A stretch of DNA of 5,987 bases, from the NCBI GenBank assembly GCA_947624095.1, contig CANQIR010000062.1, forward strand, positions 1 through 5,987. The letters are read 5' to 3'. This document shows positions 1-5,987 of the stretch, in pieces. The translations under genes and the position numbers were made by a program. The DNA comes from an uncultured Bacilli bacterium. Lineage in GTDB: Bacteria > Bacillota_I > Bacilli_A > RF39 > UBA660. Each line of letters begins with the position of its first letter. The stretch's first letter is position 1. The notes beneath the pieces were generated by a model. That model saw only the letters and a program-made list of their open reading frames with translations. It made no database searches and was not told the DNA's origin.

Positions 1-84
1 CTGCCGGCTAAAACCGTTATTTAAATTAAGTCAATAAAGGATGGTACCGCATACTTTTGCTCCTTGCAAAGTATGTGGTTTTTT
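1..84 (+). promoter_or_regulatory. T-box riboswitch, 3' part (antiterminator/terminator region) controlling serS
   Basis: This is the distal half of a tRNA-sensing T-box leader. The T-box core at 38-51 reads AGGATGGTACCGCA, close to the consensus AGGGTGGNACCGCG. The antiterminator can be drawn by pairing 14-20 (CCGTTAT) with 34-40 (ATAAAGG), with one mismatch, and CGG at 5-7 with CCG at 47-49. The TGGT at 42-45 lies in the bulge that would hold the uncharged tRNA NCCA end. Its variable base is U, which could wobble-pair with the G73 discriminator usual for tRNA-Ser. The specifier loop that would prove tRNA-Ser recognition lies upstream of the window. The expected logic is that uncharged tRNA-Ser stabilises the antiterminator and lets serS be transcribed. 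Confidence 0.9.
46..84 (+). terminator. T-box regulatory intrinsic terminator
   Basis: The arm at 46-60 (ACCGCATACTTTTGC) pairs with 66-79 (GCAAAGTATGTGGT). There is one bulged U and one G-U pair, a loop of five bases (TCCTT), and a run of T at 79-84. The 5' arm reuses the end of the T-box, so terminator and antiterminator exclude each other, which is the hallmark of T-box attenuation. Confidence 0.88.
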
Positions 85-102
85 AAAGAAAGAAGGATTA
101 AG

Positions 103-1386
103 ATGATTGATATTAAATTAATAAGAGAAAATAAAGACTTAGTAAAAGAAAATATTAAAAAGAAATTCCAAGACGAAAAATTGCCACTTGTCGATGAAAT
201 CTATGCTTTAGATGTAGAATATCGTGATGCCAAAAGAAAAATGGATGAACTTCGGGCTGAAAAAAATCGTTTAAGTGACCAAGTAGGTAATTTAATGCGG
301 GAGAAGAAAGTTGACGAAGCTAACCAAATTAAAGCTAAAGTATCTAAAATGAATGATGAAATCGCCGAGTTGACTACTAAAGAAGATGAATTAAGTAAAA
401 TCATTAAAGACAAAATGATGGTTATTCCTAATATTATTGCCGATGATGTTCCTATTGGTGAAGATGATACCCATAATGTTGAACTTCAAAGATTTGGTGA
501 GCCATTAGTTCCTGATTATGAAATTCCTTATCATGCCGATATCTTAGAAGCATTAGATGGTTTAGATAAAGAAGCAAGTGGTCGAACTAGTGGCAATGGG
601 TTTTACTATTTAATGGGTGATATTGCAAGACTTTCTAGTGCAATGCTTACTTATGCTAGAGACTTTATGATTGATAAAGGCTTTACTTACTGCATTCCAC
701 CATTTATGATTCGTAGTAGTGTAGTTACTGGTGTTATGTCCTTTAAAGAGATGGATGCAATGATGTATAAAATTGAAGGTGAAGATCTCTATCTAATCGG
801 TACTTCTGAACATTCGATGATTGGTAAATTTAAAGATCAAATTATCGATAAAAACAAACTACCTATTACGATGACTTCTTATTCCCCATGTTTCCGTAAA
901 GAAGTAGGTGCTCACGGTATCGAAGAAAGAGGTATCTATCGTGTCCATCAATTTGAAAAACAAGAAATGATTGTTATTTGTGAACCAGAAGAATCAGCTT
1001 CTTGGTATGAAAAAATGTGGCAATATACTGTCGAGCTATTTAGAAGTCTAGACATTCCTGTTCGTCAATTAGAATGTTGTAGTGGTGATTTAGCCGACTT
1101 AAAATATAAATCTTGTGATGTCGAAGCTTGGAGTCCTCGCCAACAAAAATACTTTGAAGTTGGTAGTTGCTCAAATTTAACTGACGCCCAAGCTCGTCGT
1201 TTAGGAATCCGCGCCAAAAGTGAAAAAGGTAATTACTATCTCCACACCCTCAATAATACAGTCCTCGCTAGTACTAGAGCCCTCATCGCTCTAATTGAGA
1301 ACAATTACCAAGCTGATGGTTCCATCAAAATACCTAAAGTTCTTCAACCATATATGGGTGGCAAAGAAAAAATAGTCCGTAAATAA
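103..1386 (+). CDS. serS: Serine--tRNA ligase (SerRS), class II, archaeal-like sequence type
   Basis: This enzyme charges tRNA-Ser with serine in the cytoplasm using ATP. The start chosen is ATG at 103, preceded by AGAAGGA at 91-97. An ATG further up in the same frame (64) lies inside the leader terminator and is rejected. The protein is 427 residues, normal for SerRS. Residues about 30-105 are the charged helical region expected of the tRNA-binding coiled-coil arm. The catalytic core follows, with TSEH at 234-237 (E236 in the serine-binding position), class II motif 2 (CFRKEVGAHG at 263-272, then RVHQFEKQE), NLTDAQARR at 358-366, and motif 3 around 383-403 with R392. The TSEH, FRKE.GAHG and HTLNNT..ASTR variants resemble archaeal and eukaryotic SerRS more than the usual bacterial TAEV, FR.EAGS.G and NGSGLAVGR; this comparison is from memory. 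It is a single-gene unit between the T-box leader and its own terminator. Confidence 0.96.
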   Translation: MIDIKLIRENKDLVKENIKKKFQDEKLPLVDEIYALDVEYRDAKRKMDELRAEKNRLSDQVGNLMREKKVDEANQIKAKVSKMNDEIAELTTKEDELSKIIKDKMMVIPNIIADDVPIGEDDTHNVELQRFGEPLVPDYEIPYHADILEALDGLDKEASGRTSGNGFYYLMGDIARLSSAMLTYARDFMIDKGFTYCIPPFMIRSSVVTGVMSFKEMDAMMYKIEGEDLYLIGTSEHSMIGKFKDQIIDKNKLPITMTSYSPCFRKEVGAHGIEERGIYRVHQFEKQEMIVICEPEESASWYEKMWQYTVELFRSLDIPVRQLECCSGDLADLKYKSCDVEAWSPRQQKYFEVGSCSNLTDAQARRLGIRAKSEKGNYYLHTLNNTVLASTRALIALIENNYQADGSIKIPKVLQPYMGGKEKIVRK

Positions 1387-1396
1387 TTTTTATTCC

Positions 1397-1436
1397 AGAA
1401 ATTATATTTAGCAATTTAAGTATAATTTCTTTTTTT
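1397..1436 (+). terminator. Intrinsic terminator after serS
   Basis: There is a perfect 10-base inverted repeat, AGAAATTATA at 1397-1406 and TATAATTTCT at 1421-1430. It can extend inward through TTTAG/TTAAG (with wobble pairs) to a CAAT tetraloop, and a T run follows to 1436. The stem is AT-rich, as expected in this genome. It lies 11 bases after the serS stop and separates serS from the NHEJ operon. Confidence 0.85.
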
Positions 1437-1443
1437 GTATAAA
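1415..1443 (+). promoter_or_regulatory. Possible weak housekeeping promoter for the ku operon
   Basis: TTTAAG (1415-1420), a 17-base spacer and TATAAA (1438-1443) give a poor -35 and a fair -10, with a start expected near 1450. Because serS ends in a terminator, ku should have its own promoter in this 95-base gap, but AT-rich DNA gives such matches easily. A rival sigma-G-like site (1437-1466) is described in the findings. Confidence 0.25.
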
Positions 1444-1481
1444 ATTATCCTCTTCTTCTCATAATGATATCAGGTGATCAT

Positions 1482-2231
1482 ATGGCAAATATTAGTACAA
1501 CTATATCTTTTGGTTTAGTAAATATTCCTGTAGTTTATAACCCAGTCATTAAAAATAATGACACATCATTTAATCAATTACACAAAAAATGTCTCCATCG
1601 CATTCGCTATCAAAAATACTGTGAACATTGTAAGAAAATCGTGAAAGAAGCTGATTTAATTAAAGGATACGAATACGAAAAAGGGGAGTATGTAACCTTT
1701 ACTAAAGAAGAATTAAATAATCTTCAGATCGATAATAAAGATACTTTAGAAATTATCGCTTTTGTTCCCGAAAATGAAATAGATCCCTTTTACTATGAGA
1801 AAAGCTATGTCCTTACTCCTCCCAAAAAATCCAAAGCTTTTTCTCTATTTTTAGAAGCCTTAAAGAAATCTAAAAAAGTAGCAGTTGCTAAAACTTCAAT
1901 GCATAGTAAATTCTATTACTGTCTACTTGCTTATTACAATGGTAATATTTTGATGTCAACTATTTATTTTGCTGAAGAAATCAATCTCCCAGAAGCTACT
2001 ACTGAATCCAAATTCACTAAACAAGAATTAGATTTAGCAATGAAACTAATTGATCAATTATCTAATCATTTTAAACCCGAAAGTTATCTAGATGATTATC
2101 AAAATCAGATTAAAGATGCTATTCAAGATAAAATCGAAGGTAAACCAATCCCTAAAAAGATAGCTAAGAAAAAAGCTAGTGTTCGAGATTTACTTACTTC
2201 CTTACAAAAAAGTTTGGAACCTGTTAAATGA
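1482..2231 (+). CDS. ku: Bacterial Ku protein (NHEJ DNA-end binding)
   Basis: Ku forms a homodimeric ring that threads onto double-strand break ends and recruits LigD-type enzymes. The start is ATG at 1482, preceded by AGGTGAT at 1472-1478; an in-frame ATG at 1464 lies upstream of this ribosome site and has none of its own. The protein has 249 residues, slightly short for bacterial Ku. It shows the family's opening (MANISTTISFGLVNIPV), the segment HKKCLHRIRYQKYCEHC (residues 34-50) with its three cysteines, GYEYEKGEYVTFTKEEL (62-78), and the helical ELDLAMKLIDQL block (182-193). Only a short C-terminal tail follows, with one lysine-rich patch (KKIAKKK, 225-231); some Ku proteins have much longer basic tails. 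The TGA stop overlaps the ligase start by four bases (ATGA), so the two are translationally coupled. Identification is firm. Confidence 0.95.
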   Translation: MANISTTISFGLVNIPVVYNPVIKNNDTSFNQLHKKCLHRIRYQKYCEHCKKIVKEADLIKGYEYEKGEYVTFTKEELNNLQIDNKDTLEIIAFVPENEIDPFYYEKSYVLTPPKKSKAFSLFLEALKKSKKVAVAKTSMHSKFYYCLLAYYNGNILMSTIYFAEEINLPEATTESKFTKQELDLAMKLIDQLSNHFKPESYLDDYQNQIKDAIQDKIEGKPIPKKIAKKKASVRDLLTSLQKSLEPVK

Positions 2232-3124
2232 TTTTCGGTAAGCCTTTTAAGCCTATGCTTCTCCAAGAAGTAGAGCAACCATTTAATTCTTACGAATATC
2301 TCTATGAGGTAAAATTTGATGGTATTCGAGCTACTATACACGTTGGACCTTCCAAATTTCTTATCTTTAATCGCTATGGTAAAGACATTACTAATTTCTA
2401 TCCCGAATTAAAAAATATTCAAAAAACTATCAACCAAAATACTATTTTTGATGGTGAAATCGTTCTTTTTAATAATGATAAACCTAACTTTTCTAAACTC
2501 TTAGAACGCGCTCACTTAAAAAATCATTCAAAAATTCAATACTTCACTAAGCATTATCCCGTTACCTTTGTCGCTTTTGATTGTCTTTATCAAAATAGAA
2601 GTCTTCTCACTCTCCCGCTCCAAAAGCGTAAAGAAGTTTTATCTCAATACCCAACGAATGATTATTTTATTATAAGTCCCTATATTTTAACTGATGGTCA
2701 AAAATTATTTAAAGAAATTACTAAACTTCATCTAGAAGGTATTGTCGCCAAAAAGCTCGATAGTCCTTATACCATTGCAACTCGTAGCTTTGAGTGGCTT
2801 AAGATTAAAAATTTTCAAAAAAATAACTTCTATGTAGGTGGTATCTTTGAAAAAGAAAATAATGCCGTAGCATCTCTCTATCTAGGCGAATATCAAGCTA
2901 ATGAATTTCACTTTGTCGGTAAAGTATCCATAGGTAAAAAGCAAGCATTCTATCAAAAAGTAAAACAATCTCCCACCAGGAAGACCTCACCATTCCAAGA
3001 TTACCAAAATCCTCAAATCACTTATCTAAAACCCACCTTAACTTGTCAAATCGCTTATCTAGAAAGAACAAAAAACAATCACCTACGGCAACCAATATTT
3101 AAAAAGGAGTCAAAAAATGACTAA
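2228..3124 (+). CDS. ATP-dependent DNA ligase, stand-alone LigD-type LIG domain
   Basis: This enzyme seals nicks and broken ends with ATP as cofactor, acting after Ku and the polymerase in NHEJ. The 298-residue protein contains only a ligase module. Nucleotidyltransferase motif I is EVKFDGIR at 27-34, with K29 the adenylated lysine. FNRYGKDIT follows at 47-55, FDGEIV (motif III) at 74-79 with E77, FVAFD at 114-118, EGIVAKK (motif IV) at 170-176, and WLKIK (motif V) at 190-194. An OB-fold region follows from about 200 and ends in LRQPIFK (286-292), like the end of LigD ligase domains. No polymerase or phosphoesterase part is present. The start overlaps the ku stop (ATGA) with no strong ribosome site of its own, which suggests translational coupling. 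The stop overlaps the start of the next gene by 8 bases. It could also be called a LigC-type ligase, but its neighbours favour the LigD role. Confidence 0.93.
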   Translation: MIFGKPFKPMLLQEVEQPFNSYEYLYEVKFDGIRATIHVGPSKFLIFNRYGKDITNFYPELKNIQKTINQNTIFDGEIVLFNNDKPNFSKLLERAHLKNHSKIQYFTKHYPVTFVAFDCLYQNRSLLTLPLQKRKEVLSQYPTNDYFIISPYILTDGQKLFKEITKLHLEGIVAKKLDSPYTIATRSFEWLKIKNFQKNNFYVGGIFEKENNAVASLYLGEYQANEFHFVGKVSIGKKQAFYQKVKQSPTRKTSPFQDYQNPQITYLKPTLTCQIAYLERTKNNHLRQPIFKKESKND

Positions 3125-4529
3125 TTTAACTAAATATAATCAAAAAAGAAATTTTAATAAAACGAAAGAACCTAAAGGAATTAAACAAAAATCTAAGCAA
3201 AAACTTCATTTTGTAGTTCAGCATCACTTAGCCAAAAAAGATCATTACGACTTTCGCCTAGAACTTAATGGCACTTTAAAAAGTTGGGCTGTGCCTAAAG
3301 GACCATCCTATAATTCCAAAGATAAAAGACTAGCCGTTCATGTTGAAGACCATCCTCTAGCTTATCGCAATTTTGAAGGCACTATTCCCAAAGGCGAATA
3401 TGGTGGGGGAACCGTTATGTTATGGGATGAAGGTACTTGGGAACCAATTACTAGTCCTAAGCAAGGTTACCAAAAAGGTAGTTTAAAATTCATCTTACAC
3501 GGTCAAAGACTCAAAGGTAAATGGACTTTAGTTCGTTTTAAAGAAGATAATTGGTTATTAATTAAAGAAAAAGATGATTTTTATCTATATCAAGATATTA
3601 ATGAATTTAATACTAGTATTCGTACCCAAAGAACAATGGCTGAAATTGCTACTAATAAACCTCCTCAAGTAAAAAATTCTATTCCTAAAAATCTAGTTGA
3701 AGGTATTACCATTACTAATCCCGAAAAACTTATGTATCCCCAATCGAAAATTACTAAAATGGCTGTTGTTAAGTATTATCAAGCTGTTGCTAAAAGAATG
3801 CTTCCCTATATTGAAGGCCGTATCATTAGTACTATTAGATGTCCAAAAGGTATAGAAGAAGAATCTTTCTTTAAAAAACACTATGAAGAAGAAAGTGAAG
3901 GTTTAGGTAAAATTAATCTTCCTACTACCAAGAATCAAAGATTAGATTATTACTATATTCGGAATACTACTGGTATAATTAATGAAGTCCAAATGAATGG
4001 TCTAGAATTTCATATTTGGGGTAGTTCAATAGCTAATTTAAATCATCCTAATCTTCTTGTTTTTGACCTTGACCCAGATCAAGGAATGCCAATTGCTAAA
4101 ATAAGAGAAGGTGTTAAAGATTTAAAAAGTATCTTAGATGAACTTCATTTAAAATCTTATTTAAAGACGAGTGGGGGAAAAGGCTACCACGTAGTTGTTC
4201 CCGTCCATAATTTAAAAACGTGGAAAAGTTTTCGTACCTTTGCCCAAGATATTGCCCAAGTTATGGAAACTAAATGGCCAGATAAATATACTAGTAATAT
4301 AAGAAAATCTGAAAGAAAAGGCAAAATATTTATCGACTGGCTTCGTAATACCAAATCAGCTTCCAGTGTTGCTCCATATTCCCTAAGAGCTAGATCTAAC
4401 GCTCCCGTATCCTTTCCTCTTAAATGGAGTGAATTAGACAAAGTAAAACCCAATGAAATAACTCTTCCCAAAGCTCTCAAACTTCTTAAAAGAAAAGACC
4501 CGTGGGCAGGCTTCTTCGATATTGAATAG
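3117..4529 (+). CDS. PE-POL fusion: LigD 3'-phosphoesterase plus primase/polymerase domains
   Basis: This 470-residue protein carries the two end-processing modules of LigD without the ligase. The phosphoesterase (PE, about 28-155) trims 3' ends with phosphates or ribonucleotides. It keeps the residues matching the Pseudomonas LigD active site: H37, H43, D45, R47, H79 and Y83 (HYDFRLEL, VEDHPLAY, FEGTIPKGEYGGG). A linker of about 155-195 contains RTMAEIA. The archaeal/eukaryotic-primase-type polymerase (POL, about 196-470) starts at ITNPEKLMYP. It shows FFKKH, LEFHIW (H299), metal-binding DLDP (D317, D319), TSGGKGYH (352-358 region with H358), FIDWLRN (D407) and PYSLRAR (420-426), so it looks catalytically intact and able to fill gaps with NTPs or dNTPs. 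The start at 3117 has a good AAGGAG at 3104-3109 with 7 bases of spacing. It is the last gene of the ku operon, and no clear terminator follows. Confidence 0.93.
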   Translation: MTNLTKYNQKRNFNKTKEPKGIKQKSKQKLHFVVQHHLAKKDHYDFRLELNGTLKSWAVPKGPSYNSKDKRLAVHVEDHPLAYRNFEGTIPKGEYGGGTVMLWDEGTWEPITSPKQGYQKGSLKFILHGQRLKGKWTLVRFKEDNWLLIKEKDDFYLYQDINEFNTSIRTQRTMAEIATNKPPQVKNSIPKNLVEGITITNPEKLMYPQSKITKMAVVKYYQAVAKRMLPYIEGRIISTIRCPKGIEEESFFKKHYEEESEGLGKINLPTTKNQRLDYYYIRNTTGIINEVQMNGLEFHIWGSSIANLNHPNLLVFDLDPDQGMPIAKIREGVKDLKSILDELHLKSYLKTSGGKGYHVVVPVHNLKTWKSFRTFAQDIAQVMETKWPDKYTSNIRKSERKGKIFIDWLRNTKSASSVAPYSLRARSNAPVSFPLKWSELDKVKPNEITLPKALKLLKRKDPWAGFFDIE

Positions 4530-4600
4530 GCAATTTCTTATGTAAAAAATTAATGAAAGGTGTTTATGGAAATTTTATTAACTCTCCCCAAAATAATAAC

Positions 4601-4629
4601 TTTTCAAAATCCTCATTTAATGCTAAGAT
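4601..4629 (+). promoter_or_regulatory. Possible extended -10 promoter for the unknown gene at 4655
   Basis: TTTTCA (4601-4606), a 17-base spacer and TAAGAT (4624-4629), with TGC directly before it, form an extended -10 promoter (TGnTAnnnT). A start near 4636 is expected, just before the G-rich ribosome site AAGGTGGGTGG at 4637-4647. With no terminator after the PE-POL gene, readthrough from the NHEJ operon is equally possible. Confidence 0.4.
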
Positions 4630-4654
4630 AATCTTGAAGGTGGGTGGTTTATAA

Positions 4655-5347
4655 ATGAATAGATTAGTTACCAATAAAATACTTCTTAGTGGTCGTTTTT
4701 TAGTCCGTTTAGTAAATGGCGAATTTAACTCTTTCCATCTCGAAAGGCAACAACCGCACCAAAATGAATTTATTCGTTTATATAATACTCAAGATTTCTA
4801 CGAAGGCATTTCTCTCATTGTCTATGCATCAGGTCGTTGGATTAGTAACGGCTACCGCTGCTATGAATTTGAATATACCTTTAATAACTTCATCAATGAC
4901 TATCTAGCTAAGCTTATTCAAAAAGTCAAAGACCCCGATAAACGTAACCAAATATTAAAACTTTTTACCAACAAGAACTTTTGTGAGTTACCTGTCCTCA
5001 TTCTTGCTATTGAAACCCTTTGCTCCTCTGCTATTAAATATCCCGACCAATTCCCTTATCTATATAAATTATTTACTACGAAACGTCTTCATCGTTATAC
5101 GCAAGAAAACTCTCCCTATATCTTTTTATCCATTCTTTATGGTAATCAAGAATTAGCTAGAGCTGTTAGTAACTCCCTAACAGATACCTATAGTCAATAT
5201 TACTTTAATCGTGGCGATCCTAATTCAACCTTAGAGTTTCTAACTTTCACTTATAACAATAAAGATGTTCAAAAATTAATTCAACAACAAGTTCTTAGTC
5301 TCAAAATTCCTCCATATTCTTCAATAGAGGATACTTTACCTTACTAA
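4655..5347 (+). CDS. Hypothetical protein, 230 residues, unrecognised
   Basis: I do not recognise a family. The start is ATG at 4655, with GGTGG at 4643-4647 and 7 bases of spacing (an overlapping AAGGTGG lies at 4637-4643). The protein has no signal peptide, no convincing membrane span and no coiled coil, so it is probably cytoplasmic. Roughly residues 1-75 look strand-rich with many aromatics (RWISNGYRCYEFEYTF at 61-76). Residues 77-225 look mostly helical, with aromatic and Leu/Ile-rich segments that could form a helical repeat bundle. There are three cysteines (69, 109 and 122), not in a metal-site spacing, and no nuclease, ATPase or helix-turn-helix motif that I can see. It lies 125 bases after the PE-POL gene on the same strand, so a link to NHEJ is possible but unproven. 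Codon use resembles the neighbours, and the long open frame with a good ribosome site supports a real gene. Confidence 0.8.
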   Translation: MNRLVTNKILLSGRFLVRLVNGEFNSFHLERQQPHQNEFIRLYNTQDFYEGISLIVYASGRWISNGYRCYEFEYTFNNFINDYLAKLIQKVKDPDKRNQILKLFTNKNFCELPVLILAIETLCSSAIKYPDQFPYLYKLFTTKRLHRYTQENSPYIFLSILYGNQELARAVSNSLTDTYSQYYFNRGDPNSTLEFLTFTYNNKDVQKLIQQQVLSLKIPPYSSIEDTLPY

Positions 5348-5355
5348 TAAAAAAC

Positions 5356-5384
5356 TTTAAAACTATTACTATATTTGTTATAAT
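5356..5384 (+). promoter_or_regulatory. Strong extended -10 promoter for miaB
   Basis: TTTAAA (5356-5361), a 17-base spacer and a perfect TATAAT (5379-5384) are seen, with TGT directly before the -10 (TGnTATAAT). Transcription should start near 5391, giving a leader of about 14 bases that begins close to the ribosome site GGAAGTGAT (5392-5400). It lies just after the stop of the unknown gene, so miaB begins a new transcription unit. Confidence 0.7.
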
Positions 5385-5404
5385 GTACCTCGGAAGTGAT
5401 TATT

Positions 5405-5987
5405 ATGCAGTTACCAAATTTAAACGAAGCTAGGAAAAGGACTAATGAAGAAGTAGATTATATATATTTAAAGGATAGTTACACTAAACAATTTACTAAT
5501 CAAAAATACTTTCTTAAAACTTATGGTTGTCAGATGAATGTTCACGATTCCGAAGAAATTGCTGCTCGGCTTGAATCTTTGGGTTATACACGTACAGAAA
5601 CTCTCAATGAAGCAGATATTATCATCTTAAATACTTGTGCTATTCGTGAAAATGCCCACGATAAAGTTTTCGGTTTTCTTGGTCGTTGTAAACATTTAAA
5701 AAAAGAGAATCCAGAACTAATTATCGGTTTATGCGGTTGTATGGCTCAAGAAGAGGGTGTAGTAGATGAAATAATGACTCATCATCCCTATGTTGACTTA
5801 GTCTTTGGTACCCATAATATTCATGAATTACCAAAACTAATCCTTGCTAAAAGACAATCTCAAGAAGTAAATGTCTATTCTTATGAAGGTAAAGTCTTTG
5901 AAAATATTCCTTATACCAGAGATTCAAAAATTAAAGCCTGGGTCAATATCCAATATGGTTGTGATAAATTCTGTACCTATTGTATTG
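5405..5987 (+). CDS. miaB: tRNA-2-methylthio-N6-dimethylallyladenosine synthase MiaB (partial, 3' end outside window)
   Basis: MiaB is a radical-SAM enzyme that adds a methylthio group to i6A37 in tRNAs reading UNN codons. It uses two iron-sulfur clusters. The start is ATG at 5405 after GGAAGTGAT at 5392-5400, and 194 codons are visible before the window ends. An N-terminal extension of about 34 residues, as in Bacillota MiaB, precedes the methylthiotransferase domain. The three ligands of the auxiliary cluster are C42 (KTYGCQMN), C78 (NTCAIRENA) and C112 (CGCMAQ). The radical-SAM motif CxxxCxxC is present at C186, C190 and C193 (GCDKFCTYC). NTCAIRENA and the overall sequence favour MiaB over the related MtaB or RimO. 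The catalytic barrel and TRAM domain lie beyond the window. Confidence 0.95.
   Translation, partial: MQLPNLNEARKRTNEEVDYIYLKDSYTKQFTNQKYFLKTYGCQMNVHDSEEIAARLESLGYTRTETLNEADIIILNTCAIRENAHDKVFGFLGRCKHLKKENPELIIGLCGCMAQEEGVVDEIMTHHPYVDLVFGTHNIHELPKLILAKRQSQEVNVYSYEGKVFENIPYTRDSKIKAWVNIQYGCDKFCTYCI

Follow-up and report, generated by a model that had tools for sequence, protein, structure and literature searches.

A phosphoesterase-polymerase protein without a ligase domain in an end-joining locus of uncultured gut Bacilli, and the likely chimeric origin of the gene set

Introduction

How is bacterial end joining arranged when the parts of the multidomain protein LigD are encoded apart? This question is raised by a 5,987-nt stretch of DNA, hereafter the window (contig CANQIR010000062.1, positions 1 to 5,987, assembly GCA_947624095.1), from an uncultured Bacilli bacterium with a 0.93-Mb assembly of 127 contigs and 77% completeness. 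The window encodes Ku, a stand-alone ATP-dependent ligase (LIG), and one protein that joins a 3'-phosphoesterase (PE) to a polymerase (POL). In nonhomologous end joining (NHEJ), the role of Ku is to bind ends and stimulate ligation, that of PE to heal 3' ends, and that of POL to add nucleotides, preferably ribonucleotides, as described in the available text of PMC8656161 and PMC4797286; it is also well established that NHEJ can be modular, with its parts encoded separately (available text of PMC1378119). Judging from gene content and motifs, we think it probable that the NHEJ set of this bacterium and its relatives comes in two catalytic pieces acting in trans: a ku-lig joining pair and PE-POL, a remnant of LigD. 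An earlier sequence-only reading of the window had instead proposed that one LigD was split in two.

Organization of the locus

The genes and domains of the NHEJ set are as follows.

1464-2231, + strand: ku, 255 aa (PF02735, 151 bits; TIGR02772 Ku_bact, 248 bits, cut-off 150)
2187-2219, + strand: Ku C-terminal motif DLLTSLQKSLE, similar to the minimal C-terminus conserved in other Bacilli Ku rows
2228-3124, + strand: lig, stand-alone ATP-dependent LIG, 298 aa (PF01068, 122 bits; PF04679, 49 bits)
3104-3109, + strand: AAGGAG, 7 nt ahead of the PE-POL ATG, likely the ribosome-binding site of that gene
3117-4529, + strand: PE-POL protein, 470 aa, no LIG domain (open reading frame calls, Pfam and NCBIfam)
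3219-3536, + strand: PE domain (LigD_N), residues 35-140 (PF13298, 151.7 bits)
3657-3686, + strand: predicted hinge, residues 181-190, at the position occupied by LIG in PE-LIG-POL LigD
3753-4505, + strand: POL domain, residues 213-463 (PF21686, LigD_Prim-Pol, 277.5 bits)

The score of ku against TIGR02772 marks it as a bacterial Ku gene of Ku-dependent NHEJ; an alternative in-frame ATG start lies at 1482. It overlaps lig by 4 nt (ATGA), so the window holds an ATP-dependent ligase encoded with ku, and the ligase motifs EVKFDG, DGE, EGIVAKK, and WLKIK are all intact in alignments. The ligase consists of adenylation (ATP-ligase catalytic) and C-terminal (OB) domains by Pfam and NCBIfam. Its top NCBIfam model is TIGR02779 (NHEJ_ligase_lig), at 199.6 bits, which is below the cut-off of 227.75 and leaves it short of formal membership. 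An overlap of 8 nt, in different frames, joins lig to the PE-POL gene. The same order, with identical 4- and 8-nt overlaps, is present at a locus of the same genus (L103; here G, L, and f numbers denote genomes, loci, and families).

Both halves of the PE-POL protein match their LigD families in profile score, active-site residues, and fold. The PE half scores 228.4 bits against TIGR02777 (cut-off 144), and H37, H43, D45, R47, H79, and Y83, a His/Asp/Arg/Tyr set that we take to be catalytic, are kept in at least 95% of 31 aligned rows. The POL half scores 285 bits against TIGR02778 (cut-off 214.7) and has the DxD, SGGKGxH, and downstream Asp motifs, which appear intact in the alignments as DLDPD, TSGGKGYH, and FIDWLRN. 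In an AlphaFold2 model built with 36 sequences (mean predicted local distance difference test [pLDDT] 89.8, predicted template modeling score [pTM] 0.62), Foldseek matched the PE half to the Pseudomonas and Methanocella PE structures 3n9b and 5dmp and the POL half to the Methanocella and Pseudomonas NHEJ polymerase structures 5dmu and 2fao. The hinge block, with a pLDDT of 57, lies between these two confident domains; given the weak hinge and low pTM, the model would leave the relative arrangement of PE and POL unfixed.

Pfam detected no ligase model in the 470-aa protein. LIG, alone at 298 aa, is therefore fused to neither PE nor POL, as it would be in a LigD. Open reading frames (ORFs), Pfam domains, and motif alignments thus bear out the sequence-only reading in its description of a lone LIG, a PE fused to POL, and intact catalytic residues.

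Distribution of PE-POL

PE-POL without LIG is the usual architecture in one family of gut Bacilli, that of the window. Each of the 120 best of 8,000 scored homologues, the window itself being one, matched models for both PE and POL, and a ligase model matched none of them. In the window's family, 45 of 291 genomes carry PE, and in 43 of these the frame is at least 455 aa long, with POL in the same frame confirmed directly for only part of the 43. The two short frames are real departures from the fusion: in G061, PE and POL are neighboring overlapping ORFs, and in G112, they lie on separate contigs.

The best 80 of 389 named loci, that is, loci in a public set with record titles, gave a similar picture. 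All come from uncultured gut Bacilli, Tenericutes, or similar metagenome-assembled genomes (MAGs), one being Candidatus Caccenecus avistercoris. PE and POL share a single ORF at 77 of these 80 loci, and LIG is within that ORF at none. The three remaining loci are L147 (PE and POL in two ORFs), L180 (whose contig starts inside the gene), and L181 (overlapping ORFs with a PE of 191 aa and a POL of 291 aa). An assembly error that broke a single LigD gene, which the earlier reading had allowed for, finds no support in these 77 loci and is rejected as unlikely in view of the same separate frames in independent assemblies and the AAGGAG ahead of PE-POL. The layout had also been thought uncommon, which does not hold within its own group. 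It is widespread in one family, and we did not find it described in the literature searched.

Outside the family, the enzymes are partitioned in other ways. A PE search across 395 genomes of the class gave 27 matches, 23 of them above the cut-off (16 in the window's family, seven outside it), and PE-POL without LIG was absent from all seven PE-bearing genomes outside the family. Three of these genomes have fused PE-LIG-POL beside ku (G435, G565, and G370), and two (G547 and G577) have ku next to PE-LIG and a separate POL. In G058 (L209), PE, LIG, and POL are three genes, and no Ku was found in the genome; G599 (L208) has PE and POL as two genes, and Ku was not found in its genome, nor LIG within the 10 kb read. 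The four matches below the cut-off were weak PF13298 hits in family f21 (4 of 27) and were dropped; the sole long ORF there, in G572, presumably encodes a xylose-isomerase-like protein, going by its sequence. L206 and L207 show a further partition of LigD: PE and LIG are fused there, and POL has an overlapping gene of its own, the two lying beside ku.

A LIG search across 247 class genomes matched 24. Fourteen of these, all of other families, carry Ku in every case (14/14) and neither POL (0/14) nor PE (0/14). At 12 loci (L227-L238), ku is followed directly by a LIG of 302-318 aa, and in G355 and G446, the ligase beside ku is in fragments. From gene content, ku and a lone LIG in these 14 genomes of several other Bacilli families would make up a ligase-only NHEJ pair.

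Linkage and co-occurrence with ku and lig

PE-POL is often physically unlinked from the ku-lig pair, yet is kept or lost together with it. Across the 291 family genomes, Ku was found in 46; 42 genomes had both Ku and PE, three had PE only, four had Ku only, and 242 had neither (Fisher p 2e-42, uncorrected for kinship). Ku adjoins LIG, with 222-261 bp between domain ends, in all 45 family genomes that have both. By contrast, 14 of the 43 family genomes with LIG and PE have PE-POL next to LIG; in one genome, 2.4 kb separates the two, and in 28, PE-POL is on a different contig, a count that may include contig breaks because MAG contigs are fragmented. End-processing is thus physically separable from sealing, as the sequence-only reading had anticipated. 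In G021, for example, a 142-kb contig carries PE-POL at 47 kb, and the sole Ku is on a separate contig of 107 kb.

To tell contig breaks from true unlinking, we turned to the named loci that lack ku and lig in the fetched flanks. Including the window, there were 81 loci; ku or lig lay inside the fetched DNA at only 19, neither was present at 29 loci with at least 4 kb on each side, and the other 33 had shorter flanks. Of the 62 loci lacking both genes, 50 were tested. Ku was found in 46 of their genomes and LIG in the identical 46 (six of the genomes in this set also belong to the 291-genome survey), and LIG adjoins Ku in 45; in the exception, G648, it is 1.75 kb away. A conserved ku-lig-PE-POL operon was rejected as a general rule on the basis of the 19 of 81 loci. 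Gene order also varies, with a head-to-head arrangement at L132 and PE-POL upstream of ku at L155.

Phylogeny of the domains

The trees, built with IQ-TREE and unrooted, represented the family by 18 linked or fetched ligases and 20 PE-POL loci. Matches covering less than 60% of the query and L204, a near-copy of L203, were left out, and L177 (Clostridia according to its record) was included in the PE and POL trees and excluded from identity means.

The domains of the family do not share one placement. In the POL and PE trees, the family forms one clade with the LigDs of Thermocaproicibacter melissae and of families f18 and f7 (support 100/99 for POL and 99/96 for PE), and the LigD of T. melissae is the closest fused relative of both domains. 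In the LIG tree, an 11-row clade (100/99), made up of ligases of fused, PE-LIG, and three-gene sets and one lone Rhizobium ligase, does not contain the family LIG. A joint clade of the family LIG and five Firmicute LigD ligases was rejected by the approximately unbiased (AU) test (p 0.0046, 46 rows), and the rejection held with 37 of the 46 rows (p 0.0001) after removal of nine that included rows of odd composition and Bacillus plasmid ligases. Identities tell the same story: the LigD of T. melissae averages 57.8% identity to the family in PE and 53.0% in POL vs. 30.4% in LIG, while its identity to four other Firmicute LigDs is 39-53% in PE, 37-47% in POL, and 44-47% in LIG. Moreover, residues 4-177 of PE-POL align to residues 5-185 of T. 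melissae LigD and residues 176-470 to 514-809, so that only T. melissae residues 186-513, the LIG part, are without a counterpart. A single change on the POL tree suffices to account for the PE-POL state.

These results bear directly on the proposal that one LigD was split in two. Were the window a split form of the Firmicute PE-LIG-POL LigD, all three domains should group with that protein; PE and POL do so, and LIG groups elsewhere. The proposed history is thus probably wrong. It could be rescued if a single PE-LIG-POL gene had broken up and its own LIG, after moving to a place between ku and PE-POL, had diverged rapidly. Every part does belong to LigD-type families, LIG changes faster within the genus than Ku and PE-POL, and fission seems easy in this class, as G547 and G577 (PE-LIG and POL), G058 (three genes), and L181, G061, and G112 (separate PE and POL) suggest. 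However, the rejected clade and a T. melissae LIG only 30% identical to that of the family, despite having the closest PE and POL, make this version unlikely.

The reverse direction, in which separate modules are older, PE-POL was fused later in the family, and the fused Firmicute LigDs arose through insertion of LIG, draws on the trees being unrooted and on three-gene versions being known in the class (G058) and in archaea (available text of PMC4797286). Yet the LigDs of Proteobacteria, Dyadobacter, T. melissae, and f18 are all ordered PE-LIG-POL, the family PE and POL fall on the Firmicute side, and the stand-alone PE and POL in G058 and G599 branch at a great distance, and we regard this explanation as quite improbable. 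A stretch after PE, TSIRTQRTMAEI, has its match in the linker that joins PE to LIG in the LigDs of T. melissae and S. meliloti and was considered as a scar of the lost LIG. It was not taken as proof because a tail with loose similarity is also present on the PE-only proteins of G058 and G599.

Proposed mechanism and relation to known systems

On balance, we lean toward a chimera as the explanation, in which a ligase-only Ku-LIG system, of the kind that persists in other Bacilli families, took on a PE-LIG-POL remnant that had shed its ligase. PE-POL would descend from a Firmicute PE-LIG-POL LigD after loss of the LIG segment, and sealing would fall to the ligase of the ku-lig pair, which would come from a different lineage. 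The free PE-POL, usually encoded elsewhere in a genome of about 1 Mb, would then work in trans with this ligase of foreign descent, both being held by Ku. At a break, Ku would gather LIG and PE-POL, with PE healing 3' ends, POL adding (ribo)nucleotides, and LIG sealing. According to the available text of PMC9638933, the Ku core of one species directly binds ligase and polymerase domains, and a minimal C-terminus suffices for stimulating ligation. Since that core binds both domains and the family Ku ends in a similar motif, Ku could, by analogy, hold LIG and PE-POL together unfused. A role for PE-POL outside NHEJ, for instance in filling gaps or in excision repair, of the kind suggested for mycobacterial Prim-PolC/LigC, might be read from its frequent separation from ku-lig and from the few genomes with PE-POL in which no Ku or LIG was found, but it is very improbable, as PE-POL nearly always occurs with Ku and LIG (42/45; 46/50) and is scarce otherwise.

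Several observations weigh against a Ku-held chimera. Co-occurrence is imperfect: neither Ku nor LIG was found in four of the 50 named genomes with PE-POL (G636, G639, G666, and G668), and the family genomes G098 and G253 have PE without Ku or LIG. G186 has LIG and PE-POL without Ku, at a contig end, and Ku occurs without PE in G028 (a fragment), G264, G280, and G288. In the LIG tree, the sister relation of the family LIG to the ku-LIG ligases is weak (84/68), and its placement as sister of all fused LigD-type ligases was not rejected (p 0.30). The family Ku forms a long separate branch in its own tree, where grouping with the Ku of ku-LIG pairs (p 6e-6) and with the Ku of fused-LigD sets (p 1e-5) was rejected. 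The Ku tree therefore does not support a shared ku-lig history, and Ku as an ancestry partner of LIG was dropped. Between the window and L103, identity is 62% for LIG, 83% for Ku, and 75% for PE-POL, and fast evolution of LIG could distort its position in the tree. Finally, the direction of change, loss of LIG rather than its insertion, is a matter of parsimony only.

Among known systems, the PE-LIG-POL LigD (Pseudomonas type, the nearest being the T. melissae plasmid LigD, L202) has the same PE and POL families in the same order and a Ku gene nearby, but its LIG sits inside one polypeptide, whereas that of the window family is a separate gene that groups elsewhere. In the separately encoded archaeo-prokaryotic NHEJ of Methanocella, Archaeoglobus, and Streptomyces coelicolor, a lone ligase stands alongside separate end-processing proteins, as here, but PE and POL are distinct proteins in the cases described in the available text of PMC4797286 and PMC1378119 rather than one. 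The Bacillus subtilis LigD, also a departure from the three-domain form in Bacilli, lacks PE and fuses LIG to POL (available text of PMC8656161 and PMC3656841), whereas in the window family, it is PE that is fused to POL, with LIG free. The closest resemblance on the ligase side is to the ku-LIG pairs in 14 genomes of other Bacilli families, where ku is likewise followed directly by a stand-alone LIG of ~300-320 aa, weakly the nearest LIG group; unlike in the window family, no PE or POL was detected in any of those genomes.

We found no PE-POL protein accompanied by a free ligase named in the openly available portions of the literature searched (supplementary tables and subscription papers lay out of reach). 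PE-POL with free LIG thus appears to be a new form of the known modular NHEJ, with a likely chimeric origin and no prior description found. The family is a natural experiment, with PE and POL together, LIG free, and genes often unlinked yet co-kept or co-lost. Together with the genomes of other families that have only Ku and ligase, it could span a range from end joining that lacks processing to end joining with processing in trans, open to reconstitution with purified proteins. It also places NHEJ genes in reduced-genome Bacilli, some of them recorded as Tenericutes.

Neighboring genes and additional observations

The rest of the window holds three features.

64-1386: serS
4655-5347: unnamed 230-aa ORF, between PE-POL and the miaB-like gene
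5396 on: miaB-like gene, start only

The identities of serS and the miaB-like gene are presumed from sequence features. A phage origin of the set was considered and rejected, as two faecal contigs deposited as "Bacteriophage sp." carry only a distant POL (28-29% identity). One of these human-faecal contigs (L219, MT836529.1) encodes a lone 330-aa POL-like ORF at 2520-3512, with 28% identity, and no ku, LIG, or PE relative was found at that locus. On a plasmid of Oscillospiraceae bacterium MB08-C2-2 (L220, 4180-5927), a ku-ligase pair stands beside genes annotated as SIR2-family and DNA polymerase IV. Neither Pfam nor NCBIfam matched the 230-aa ORF; its only relatives among ORFs at the searched loci are in L103 of the same genus, one at the same position (52% identity) and a second copy further along (33%).

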